From a virus, in the IMG/VR virus record IMGVR_UViG_3300026097_000063, positions 1-32,967 of that record: a stretch of 32,967 nt of DNA; one strand, 5' to 3'. Both the position numbers and the translations under genes were made by a program. A model generated the notes under the pieces. It made no database searches. It was given only the letters and a program-made list of their open reading frames with translations, and was not told where the DNA came from. Each line of letters opens with the position of its first letter. The first letter of the stretch is position 1. Positions 5,987 through 9,062 of this stretch are shown here, one piece after another.

Positions 5987-6180
5987 AAAAGATCAGAAGC
6001 ATCAAGCGTTGTGAAACCTGCCCGACCTGGATTGGATCAAGGAAAGAAGTCATCTTGTGTGACGAATGCACAAGTCTTCAAGAAATGATGCAGTCTCTGT
6101 GGAAGACTCCAGAAATGCCCGAGCTGGCAGAGCTAGGTAGGTTAATTGATTCATTTCCCACAAAGGTTACCGAATCATGA
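5983..6180 (+). CDS. Small zinc-finger protein
   Basis: The 65-residue product has a clean four-cysteine zinc site, Cys10-x2-Cys13 and Cys26-x2-Cys29 (RCETC ... LCDEC), on a basic N-terminus, then a helical tail rich in Met and Glu. It overlaps both neighbours by four bases and directly precedes the methyltransferase gene. A nucleic-acid or protein-binding role is likely; a link to the methyltransferase is only suggested by position. Confidence 0.65.
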   Translation: MKKIRSIKRCETCPTWIGSRKEVILCDECTSLQEMMQSLWKTPEMPELAELGRLIDSFPTKVTES

Positions 6181-7184
6181 ATTATTACAATGAGTGGGAT
6201 AGTTTCGCAGCCGAATGGCTTAAACAATTAATCAAAGACGGCCTAATACCTAATGGTGAGGTCGATACAAGGAGCATTGCAGATGTCGAACCATCAGACC
6301 TTAAAGGATTTACTCAATGTCACTTCTTCGCAGGAATCGGAGGATGGAGTAGAGCATTACAACTCGCAGGATGGAGTCCAGACAGACCTGTTTGGACAGG
6401 AAGTCCTCCATGTCAATCCTTCTCAACAGCAGGGAAAGGGAAAGGAAAAGATGACGAGCGACACCTCTGGCCAGTGTTCTTTAATCTCATCCGAGAGTGC
6501 CAACCTCCAACGGTCTTTGGAGAGCAAGTTGCGGCAGCTATCAGATATGGATGGCTCGACGATCTACAAATTGACTTTGAAAAGGAAGGATACGCCTCAG
6601 CAGCGGTCGTATTACCAGCTGGCAGCGTCGGCGCGTACCACAAAAGGGACAGACTCTTCTTTACCGCCAAGCGCGTGGCCGACTCCAGCGCAGAGAGATT
6701 ACAAAGGCGGTCGGAAGCTAGACGAAAACGCTCAAAATTCGAGTGCGAAGACGGGAGTCAGATACGGTCTGTCGCTAGATCAGACGCCTCAACTAGTTCC
6801 GTGGCCGACTCCAACTCATCACAACTCCAAGGAAGGGGGATATCCGGGGGAGTTAACTCGCAACACTATTCCATTAGGCGCGATGAAGCATATGGTAGCG
6901 TGGGCAACGCCGAACACGATGGATTATATGACTCAGAGGTCGGACGAAGCATTGGCTCGGGCAAAGACAAAGGGAGGTTGCTCAAACCTCAAAGATCAAA
7001 TACCGACATTTGGGCTGAACCCAGAATCATCTACTGCCGAGACGGAAAGTACCGCCCCATCCCAACTGAACCCGCGCTTTTCCCTCTGGCTAATGGGGTA
7101 TCCAATCGAGTGGGCATACTGCGCGGAGCGGGTAACGCCATTGTCCCGCAAGCGGCAGCGGAAATCATAAAGGCGGTGATGTAG
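6177..7184 (+). CDS. C5 cytosine DNA methyltransferase
   Basis: This 335-residue enzyme transfers a methyl group from S-adenosylmethionine to carbon 5 of cytosine. Motif I (FAGIGG, 51-56) binds the cofactor. Motif IV (GSPPCQSFS, with Cys79) holds the catalytic cysteine, motif VI appears as FGEQV (114-118; the family usually has ENV), motif VIII is HKRDRLFF (155-162), and motif X is GNAIVPQ (319-325). The part between about 165 and 300, where target recognition lies, is rich in Ser, Arg, Gly and Asp and of low complexity. That same DNA encodes a second protein in the +1 frame. It probably protects phage DNA from host restriction. No partner restriction enzyme is visible. Confidence 0.9.
   Translation: MNYYNEWDSFAAEWLKQLIKDGLIPNGEVDTRSIADVEPSDLKGFTQCHFFAGIGGWSRALQLAGWSPDRPVWTGSPPCQSFSTAGKGKGKDDERHLWPVFFNLIRECQPPTVFGEQVAAAIRYGWLDDLQIDFEKEGYASAAVVLPAGSVGAYHKRDRLFFTAKRVADSSAERLQRRSEARRKRSKFECEDGSQIRSVARSDASTSSVADSNSSQLQGRGISGGVNSQHYSIRRDEAYGSVGNAEHDGLYDSEVGRSIGSGKDKGRLLKPQRSNTDIWAEPRIIYCRDGKYRPIPTEPALFPLANGVSNRVGILRGAGNAIVPQAAAEIIKAVM
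6269..6274 (+). promoter_or_regulatory. Ribosome-binding site inside the methyltransferase gene
   Basis: AAGGAG is followed by eight bases and then ATG at 6283, an ideal spacing, in the +1 frame of the methyltransferase. It supports independent translation of the nested gene and identifies 6283 rather than the upstream in-frame ATG at 6253 as its start. Confidence 0.6.
6283..7170 (+). CDS. WPTP-motif protein encoded inside the methyltransferase gene
   Basis: A 295-residue frame lies entirely within the methyltransferase gene in the +1 frame, with its own ribosome-binding site. It contains LESKLRQLSDMDGSTIYKLT, a SARTTKG segment, WPTP at about 132-135 and 174-177, WATP at 207-210, and LNPRFSLWLMGYPIEW near 262-277. 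I recall this order of motifs from proteins encoded with C5 methyltransferases in other phages and prophages, which suggests a genuine conserved family, not a chance frame. A random shadow frame would not be expected to stay open for nearly 900 bases and carry repeated WPTP and a WLMGYP ending. Function unknown; it may act with the methyltransferase. Confidence 0.65.
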   Translation: MSNHQTLKDLLNVTSSQESEDGVEHYNSQDGVQTDLFGQEVLHVNPSQQQGKGKEKMTSDTSGQCSLISSESANLQRSLESKLRQLSDMDGSTIYKLTLKRKDTPQQRSYYQLAASARTTKGTDSSLPPSAWPTPAQRDYKGGRKLDENAQNSSAKTGVRYGLSLDQTPQLVPWPTPTHHNSKEGGYPGELTRNTIPLGAMKHMVAWATPNTMDYMTQRSDEALARAKTKGGCSNLKDQIPTFGLNPESSTAETESTAPSQLNPRFSLWLMGYPIEWAYCAERVTPLSRKRQRKS

Positions 7185-8665
7185 TGGTTAGTTTACGACC
7201 ACACCAAGAGGTTGCGGTAGAAGCTCTGAGGAAGTCTTTACGCAAGGGTAAGATGCGACCTTTGTTGGCAGCGCCATGTAGCATGGGTAAGACGATGATT
7301 GCAGCCCATATCATGATGAACGCAGCAGAAAAGGGCATTAGGTCTATTTTCTTCTGCGACAGGGTTAAATTGGTTAGTCAGACAGTAGATACCTTTGATC
7401 GGTTAGGAGCTGACTACTCAGTGCTTCAGGCCGATGACCCAAGGTATGACCCCAATAAACTTATCCAGATAGCCTCTATCCAGACTGCTGTGAGGCGCAA
7501 GCATCTAGCCTTTAATCTAGCCATAGTGGATGAATGCCACACCATGTATAAGGGTCTAGTGGATGGGTTCATGGACAGGTACGATGCAGTGCCGTTCATA
7601 GGACTTAGCGCCACGCCATTTAGCAAGTCGCTGGGTTTGCATTGGGACGATCTTATAGTCACCACCACCACCAGACAGCTACTAGACCAAGGCTGGCTGT
7701 GTCCCACAGATTATTACGTTGGCAAGTCCATAGACCTGAAAGGTATCAAAACCAAGTCCTTATCCACTGGTGGCTCAGACTATGACCCAGAGGCTCTGGG
7801 TAAAGCGATGATGGATGACACGTTTAATGGGGATATTGTGGAGAATTACCGCAAGCACTCTAATGACCTCCAAAGGAAGGCCATAGCCTTTAGCCCATCG
7901 GTCGCACACTCCAAGTCAATGGTGGAAAGGTTCAACTCTGCTGGCATCCCTGCATTGCACATAGATGGTTACATGAGTGATGAAGAACGGAAATACATCT
8001 ATGACGACCACAGGGCTGGACGATGCAAGGTCTTGTGTTGCAGCCGTCTCTTGGGGGTGGGGTATGACGACCCTTCCGTAGAGATACTCATAGACTGCTT
8101 CCCTACTAAATCTCCTATAGCTTTTGTCCAGAGGGCAGGCAGAATCTGGCGTATCGCAGAAGGAAAAGAGAAGGCCACCTATCTCGACCATGCTGGAAAC
8201 TTAAAAACTCACGGCTTTCCAGAGGACATAGTTCCTAAGTCTTTGGATAGGGGTGAGCAGCGGTTTAAGGAGAATAATCAGGTTCAGAAGGATGAACGTG
8301 AGAAAATCACCAGAGACTGCCCTGTGTGTTCAGCAGCCTTCCAAGGTCGCAAATGTGCCTGTGGGTATGTCATTCCATCCAGCGACCCAGTGTTCAAGGA
8401 TGACGGCTCAATGCTAAAGAAGGTTAGTAAGGACTTTAAGGTTGAGGATAAGTCCGAATGGATGGGTCAGTTTATGCAGTATGCCAAGGACAAGGGCTAC
8501 GCTGAAGGCTGGGCTAGTCATAAGTATAAAGAGAAGTTTGGTGTATGGCCCAAGGGAGTCGATAGAACTCCAAGGCCAGTTAAAAACGAAGTGAGGAACT
8601 TTATAACTCACATAAACATCAGAAGGAGAATGAGCAATGCTAAACCTCGAACGTATTCTTGGTAG
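7184..8665 (+). CDS. Superfamily 2 DNA helicase
   Basis: A 493-residue DEAD/DEAH-type helicase starting at GTG, one base overlapping the methyltransferase stop (TAGTG). Motif Ia/Q-like RPHQEVAVEAL opens the protein. Walker A is APCSMGKT (30-37), with Cys, Ser and Met where most relatives have Thr, Gly and Ser/Ala. The DECH box is at 116-119, LSATPF at 141-146, and the C-terminal lobe carries QRAGRIWR (316-323), which contacts ATP and nucleic acid. After the motor comes a probable zinc knuckle (CPVC at 379-382, CAC at 391-393) and a basic tail. It probably unwinds DNA during phage replication, together with the primase zinc-finger protein encoded next. Confidence 0.9.
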   Translation: MVSLRPHQEVAVEALRKSLRKGKMRPLLAAPCSMGKTMIAAHIMMNAAEKGIRSIFFCDRVKLVSQTVDTFDRLGADYSVLQADDPRYDPNKLIQIASIQTAVRRKHLAFNLAIVDECHTMYKGLVDGFMDRYDAVPFIGLSATPFSKSLGLHWDDLIVTTTTRQLLDQGWLCPTDYYVGKSIDLKGIKTKSLSTGGSDYDPEALGKAMMDDTFNGDIVENYRKHSNDLQRKAIAFSPSVAHSKSMVERFNSAGIPALHIDGYMSDEERKYIYDDHRAGRCKVLCCSRLLGVGYDDPSVEILIDCFPTKSPIAFVQRAGRIWRIAEGKEKATYLDHAGNLKTHGFPEDIVPKSLDRGEQRFKENNQVQKDEREKITRDCPVCSAAFQGRKCACGYVIPSSDPVFKDDGSMLKKVSKDFKVEDKSEWMGQFMQYAKDKGYAEGWASHKYKEKFGVWPKGVDRTPRPVKNEVRNFITHINIRRRMSNAKPRTYSW

Positions 8666-9062
8666 TCTGGATAAGGTCAGGAAGTCAGGCAAGAACTACA
8701 TAGCCTGCTGTCCTGTACACGGGGACAACAACCCTTCAATGTCTATCAAGGAGGCAGATGATAAGATTCTGATGTACTGCCACGCCTGTGGAGCCAAAGG
8801 CCCAGAGATAGTCCAATCCCTTGGGATGAAGCCAGACGTACTGTTTGATAAGCCATTTAAGACCGAATACGACCGTCACTGGCTACTAAACAAGAAGGCT
8901 GATTGGGATGACACTATGCTCATGATGGCCCATGAAACACTTAAACAAGGCAAAACAATAAGTTATAATGACTACAAGGAAATTAAACAGTCATTAGCTC
9001 GGCGTGAGCAACGCAGGAAGTACAACCTGCCCATACTATTCAACATGGAAATAGCTCTATGA
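8637..9062 (+). CDS. Stand-alone CHC2 primase zinc-finger protein
   Basis: The 141-residue product has the CHC2 zinc site of DnaG-type primases: Cys25-x2-His28 (CPVHGDNNPS) and Cys48-x2-Cys51 (CHACGAKG), in the usual setting with SMSI between them. This domain recognises the priming sequence on single-stranded DNA. The catalytic TOPRIM domain is missing; the remaining 80 residues are charged and helical (EIKQSLARREQRRKYN). The phage must use another polymerising subunit, perhaps encoded outside the window, or the protein may work differently. It starts 29 bases inside the helicase gene after AAGGAGAAT, so the two are probably co-translated. Confidence 0.8.
   Translation: MLNLERILGSLDKVRKSGKNYIACCPVHGDNNPSMSIKEADDKILMYCHACGAKGPEIVQSLGMKPDVLFDKPFKTEYDRHWLLNKKADWDDTMLMMAHETLKQGKTISYNDYKEIKQSLARREQRRKYNLPILFNMEIAL

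Follow-up and report, generated by a model that had tools for sequence, protein, structure and literature searches.

The methyltransferases M.EcoHK31I and M.AquI are each built from two polypeptides (PMC3404938). In M.EcoHK31I the predicted recognition domain is on the larger polypeptide together with motifs I-VIII and X, and the smaller one carries only motif IX; M.AquI is a naturally split C5 methyltransferase with motif IX on its smaller polypeptide (PMC3404938). According to the title of a paper cited there, M.EcoHK31I needs two proteins for methylation in vitro. Here, a locus in the virus record IMGVR_UViG_3300026097_000063 was analyzed, which is used over its whole length of 32,967 bases and is called the window below. 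The locus consists of an outer gene for a C5-cytosine methyltransferase, termed alpha, and a second gene, termed beta, which lies completely within alpha in the +1 frame. The small subunit of EcoHK31I, a protein of about 176 amino acids (aa), is likewise encoded within the large-subunit gene in another frame, as Lee et al. are said to have described in 1995. We propose, with a probability of roughly 0.85, that alpha and beta together make up a single two-subunit phage C5-cytosine DNA methyltransferase. Judged by its sequence, the nested gene is real, and the locus is largely explained as a probable dual-coded two-polypeptide C5 methyltransferase, comparable with M.EcoHK31I.

Selection on both reading frames

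The two genes and the start signal of beta have the following positions in the window.

6177..7184, + strand: alpha, outer C5-cytosine methyltransferase gene, 335 aa (PF00145 E 3e-17, phrog_363 E 2e-76, Foldseek to HaeIII/HhaI methyltransferases E 1e-8)
6253..7170, + strand: beta, nested +1-frame gene in its longest form, 305 aa, from ATG 6253 (phrog_1008 E 5.6e-28; homologues in 218 phage records)
6283..7170, + strand: beta from its likelier start, ATG 6283, 295 aa (Shine-Dalgarno sequence upstream; ATG at that register in 74/122 relatives)
6269..6274, + strand: Shine-Dalgarno sequence AAGGAG of beta, overlapping alpha codons Arg32-Ser33, eight bases 5' of ATG 6283

The first-pass annotation of this DNA had described a complete second gene of 295 residues in the +1 frame of the methyltransferase gene, starting at ATG 6283 with AAGGAG eight bases upstream. 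Both elements are located as described, and the existence of the gene was confirmed by comparison with relatives. The +1 frame is open in all 122 distinct relatives. Upon permutation of synonymous codons, 4.3 stops per gene were expected, none was observed, and the median probability of an open +1 frame was 0.002. In a recoding test, a profile was trained on half of the families and scored on the other half. Real nested frames reached a median of 317 bits, versus 124 bits for synonymously recoded versions, and the real frame outscored every recoded copy in 122/122 genes with no overlap; synonymous recoding of alpha abolishes the conserved beta sequence. Among close pairs the nested frame showed a dNN/dNS of 0.33 (bootstrap over pairs 0.31-0.34, the pairs not being independent); the value for the corresponding frame of single-chain C5 methyltransferases was 1.12. 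No usable pairs for this test came from the Xenia and Rhynn sets or from the E. coli Dcm-type set.

Long nested open reading frames (ORFs) do occur in biased sequence, and the open +1 frame might in principle be a by-product of alpha composition. This is hardly credible, since it is refuted by the codon permutation, recoding and dN/dS tests and since 0/55 single-chain C5 methyltransferases keep the +1 frame open.

Codon choice in alpha bears the mark of the second protein as well. Between motifs VIII and X, the codons of V/L-A-D tripeptides read W-P-T in the +1 frame in 88/102 cases (86%), compared to 6/76 (8%) in neighbouring genes. The low-complexity part of alpha is thus shaped by beta, as the first-pass annotation had suspected; its assignment of the same part as the target-recognition region of the methyltransferase is probably incorrect (see below). 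In the window, alpha reads VADS opposite both WPTP repeats of beta (6676 and 6802). The pairing of WPTP with VADS therefore holds at these two sites, but the third repeat, WATP at 6901, stands opposite VGNA. The alpha Arg codon that forms the Shine-Dalgarno sequence is AGG in 43/110 relatives (39%), compared to 8.6% of the Arg codons in neighbouring genes, and GGAG followed by a +1 ATG was found in 59/110. Based on the permutation, recoding, dNN/dNS, W-P-T codon and AGG tests, selection acts on both frames, and beta is equipped with a start signal of its own.

Alternatively, ribosomes might change frame within the gene, so that no separate beta is made and a single chain carries motifs I-VIII, then the recognition region, then motif IX; exactly such a chain is present in one frame in the three loci L340, L341 and L425. 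Nevertheless, we consider a frameshift very improbable. Beta has a start and a Shine-Dalgarno sequence of its own, the Arg codon overlapping the latter shows a 4-fold enrichment of AGG, and beta has conserved positions even ahead of its recognition region, where they would be superfluous in a frameshift product.

The pairing of the two genes is constant in the loci examined, which were found by searches with either protein. Beta lies at +1 of the methyltransferase in 165/165 viral loci and, equally, in 80/80 bacterial loci. Its offset within the methyltransferase gene is 106 or 109 bases (153 loci measured). Free-standing beta genes were not found among the phage, viral and bacterial loci examined. 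The first-pass annotation had mentioned WPTP-WLMG proteins beside phage C5 methyltransferases; the association is correct, but in the loci examined the proteins are encoded in the same DNA rather than next to it. In L129 and L149 the beta frame continues for several hundred bases beyond the alpha stop, and beta may thus have C-terminal extensions in some phages.

Motif content of alpha and beta

The motifs and predicted structural elements of both proteins map to the window as listed here. Loci from annotated records were excluded from the AlphaFold input alignments.

6411..6413, + strand: catalytic Cys79 of alpha (SPPCQ, motif IV), invariant in a 104-row alignment
6490..6633, + strand: helix and beta-hairpin of beta, residues 70-117 (AlphaFold pLDDT ~76-91; beta consensus GSTLYKLTWK...TPxGR...LRAS), the best-predicted part of beta
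6639..6662, + strand: motif VIII of alpha (HKRDRLFF), from sequence; the alignment to HhaI stops just past it
6676..6912, + strand: WPTP/WPTP/WATP repeats of beta, proposed target-recognition region (codon test)
6744..7025, + strand: stretch of alpha flanked by motifs VIII and X, with predicted disorder (AlphaFold pLDDT ~38-57, residues 190-283)
7066..7113, + strand: motif IX-like segment of beta, LNPRFSLWLMGYPIEW (register match to HhaI LHPRECARVMGYPDSY; the alpha frame lacks the pattern in 122/122 relatives)
7122..7151, + strand: motif X of alpha (RGAGNAIVPQ), from sequence; near-invariant, 21.7 codons 3' of beta motif IX on the DNA

Alpha is a C5-cytosine methyltransferase in which the S-adenosylmethionine (AdoMet) and catalytic motifs, including the PCQ cysteine, are present. 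Its sequence can be aligned to M.HhaI only as far as motif VIII, and in a structure search its model corresponds to the M.HaeIII and M.HhaI catalytic domain (Foldseek E ~1e-8). The catalytic motifs up to VIII are followed by the stretch predicted to be disordered and then by motif X. In single-chain enzymes motif IX is located just before motif X; this pattern was found in 0/122 alphas of the window family. Alpha consequently does not have the single-chain layout, with motif IX and target-recognition domain in one chain, and shows the layout of the EcoHK31I-type large subunit, in which motifs I-VIII and X are present and IX is absent.

The missing pattern is present in the nested protein. Beta contains the motif IX pattern in 113/122 members of the window family, and in the window its segment LNPRFSLWLMGYPIEW aligns with motif IX of M.HhaI, LHPRECARVMGYPDSY, at the matching place. 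This segment lies near the end of the protein and does not form the end itself, as had been annotated; 18 further residues follow to the C-terminus. At the DNA level, beta motif IX is located 21.7 codons ahead of alpha motif X in 108/113 window-family genes, and in single-chain enzymes the two motifs are 31-33 residues apart; the motif order is thus kept. In two more distant families, collected with Paenibacillus and Mycobacterium phage alphas (n = 113), motif IX was found in 0/113 alphas and a beta match in the +1 frame in 110/113 genes. Of the 55 single-chain relatives, 53 have motif IX in frame and none contains beta. Position and complementarity of the motifs are therefore strong.

Several observations weigh against the proposed two-subunit enzyme. 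An hhalign comparison of beta with HhaI motif IX found the right register, but with P 0.01 and a probability of 4%, and the ranking of candidate motif IX sites is only partly informative, as its segments had been chosen beforehand with a similar pattern. A beta profile searched against PDB sequences matched no solved C5 methyltransferase. The AlphaFold model of beta is of low confidence (mean pLDDT 58.7), and a Foldseek search with it returned zero matches. Finally, the recognition domain of M.EcoHK31I is predicted in the large subunit (PMC3404938). Because the profile statistics are weak, the beta segment is termed motif IX-like mainly on the basis of position and complementarity. Pfam and NCBIfam scans of beta revealed no significant family. 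In the PDB sequence search, beta matched only a peptidase, and this by chance; hhalign of alpha with beta indicated that the two are unrelated.

Such findings would fit a beta that acts independently, for example as an anti-restriction, DNA-binding or regulatory protein, and overlaps the methyltransferase gene by accident: on its own, it lacks a significant fold or profile match to methyltransferases and is mostly poorly predicted. We regard this as quite improbable, since beta always occurs with alpha in the loci examined, carries a motif absent from alpha at the collinear position, and is found in natural fusions to motif X or to motifs I-VIII.

Within a two-subunit enzyme, the location of sequence recognition has to be considered separately. 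Beta could give motif IX and aid stability or DNA binding, with recognition remaining in the alpha region between motifs VIII and X. The placement of the M.EcoHK31I recognition domain cited above would agree with this, as would the length of that region in window-family alphas, which at ~162 residues is similar to single-chain enzymes. However, the region is predicted to be disordered, its V/L-A-D codons follow the needs of beta, and in some alphas (the Rhynn-type family) motifs VIII and X are just 59-70 residues apart, compared to 124-175 in single-chain enzymes. This is too short for a target-recognition domain, so that in these proteins recognition must lie elsewhere. Hence, recognition by alpha appears unlikely, and its low-complexity part between VIII and X is probably not a target-recognition domain.

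In the enzyme proposed here, alpha would form the large catalytic domain with the AdoMet site, the catalytic Cys, the motifs up to VIII and motif X. Beta, translated from its own ATG and Shine-Dalgarno sequence, would supply the small DNA-facing domain that is absent from alpha, with the variable WPTP region as target-recognition domain, followed by motif IX. The assignment of beta as the small DNA-recognizing half is very probably correct, because alpha lacks motif IX, beta has a motif IX-like segment, and some alphas offer no room for recognition. Both proteins would assemble into one enzyme, and the helix and hairpin of beta might perhaps be the contact with alpha, which is a guess from the model. 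Alpha alone would be inactive or unspecific, and alpha and beta together would methylate a specific sequence; the simplest role of this methylation would be to shield phage DNA from host restriction. The first-pass annotation had suggested that two proteins cooperate in DNA modification. This direction is supported, but the pair looks like one two-polypeptide enzyme rather than a methyltransferase with a second protein of no known function.

Rearranged loci, distribution and annotation

A few loci deviate from the common arrangement. In L282 (1998-2507, 2194-3177) motifs I-VIII are encoded by one ORF, and an overlapping second ORF contains beta together with motifs IX and X. In L340 (1962-2918), L341 and L425 (1998 onward), a single chain combines motifs I-VIII with PTP repeats and LNPRFVAEMMGFPPNW, and motif X is in another frame; here the C-terminal parts of alpha and beta appear to have swapped frames. 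These four rearrangements seem to agree with the two-subunit reading, and each may be either functional or a sequence error. In L278 (1995-2762), a Paenibacillus prophage-like contig, the frame of motifs I-VIII leads on to a shortened WPTP region and motif IX, which looks like the outcome of an internal deletion. In L172 (1366-2281, Mycobacterium phage Seabastian) and L243 (a viral contig), the alpha frame is seemingly broken by a change of frame between motifs IV and VIII, and the pieces are annotated in the record as two separate 'DNA methylase' genes.

The pair was found in phages of Enterobacteriaceae, Pseudomonas, Burkholderia, Xanthomonas, Vibrio, Rhodobacter, Paenibacillus and Mycobacterium, and in bacterial contigs named as Proteobacteria, Verrucomicrobia, Planctomycetes, Bacteroidetes and others. 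The 218 phage records with beta homologues come from a family search, as the first-pass annotation had recommended, and the corresponding PHROG family is phrog_1008. The alpha/beta split, for which there is a precedent in one bacterial enzyme, is common in phages. A wider scenario is more tentative, and we would give it slightly less than even odds: in a large branch of C5 methyltransferases, from phages and several bacterial phyla, the recognition domain and motif IX may have moved en bloc to the +1 frame and gained their own start. The catalytic gene would then dual-code its specificity subunit, with the motif order kept and with indels that sometimes swap motifs between the chains.

Public annotation of the pair is inconsistent. 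Only alpha is annotated in BcepC6B, only beta in VLCpiM12a, both in K1ind2 and PhiXhv-18, and neither in Riah. A literature description of nested methyltransferases in phages was not found, subscription papers being outside the coverage of the search. The present analysis proposes a function for the conserved nested protein phrog_1008/'Mte8-like', which is annotated as methyltransferase, as hypothetical or not at all. It also suggests that, for many phage 'DNA methyltransferases', the annotation covers just one half of the enzyme, and that a single cloned ORF would seem inactive. The locus provides a well-sampled case of natural dual coding, in which two long proteins, one with known biochemistry, are made from one stretch of DNA. 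Its interest lies in this breadth, in the frequent half-annotation and in a testable location of specificity, since target specificity is predicted to reside in the overlooked nested frame.

Adjacent genes in the window are closely packed. The ATG of alpha overlaps the stop of the upstream ORF at 6177-6180, and the next gene, which is helicase-like, begins with GTG 7184 at the final base of the alpha stop codon. This arrangement points to an operon with translational coupling. A zinc-finger primase-like ORF (CPVHGDNNPSMSI...CHACG) at 8637-9062 overlaps the 3' end of the helicase-like gene.

Comparison with known systems

M.HhaI and M.HaeIII share the catalytic domain with alpha, and their motif IX is resembled by the beta segment. 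They differ from the phage pair in having motif IX and the recognition domain in a single chain, and the single-chain relatives tested are without a nested gene. The 'Putative Mte8-like protein' of K1 phages (e.g. GU196280 ORF28; phrog_1008) is a beta homologue that has been annotated within a C-specific methylase gene; these records give a bare name or 'DNA methyltransferase', without a function or subunit role.

M.AquI (CYCGRG) has motif IX on the smaller polypeptide, much as beta has a motif IX-like segment. However, its smaller subunit carries IX and X together, whereas in the phage pair alpha retains motif X and one gene lies entirely inside the other. Only L282 shows an AquI-like layout.

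M.EcoHK31I (YGGCCR), compared by its published description, is similar in motif content: its large subunit contains motifs I-VIII and X without IX, the same as alpha, and motif IX is located on a separate smaller polypeptide, in likeness to beta, whose own motif IX statistics are weak (P 0.01). The phage system differs in being phage-borne and in the size of beta (295-305 aa). Furthermore, the recognition domain is placed in the large subunit of M.EcoHK31I in the literature, whereas in the phage enzyme it would reside in beta.
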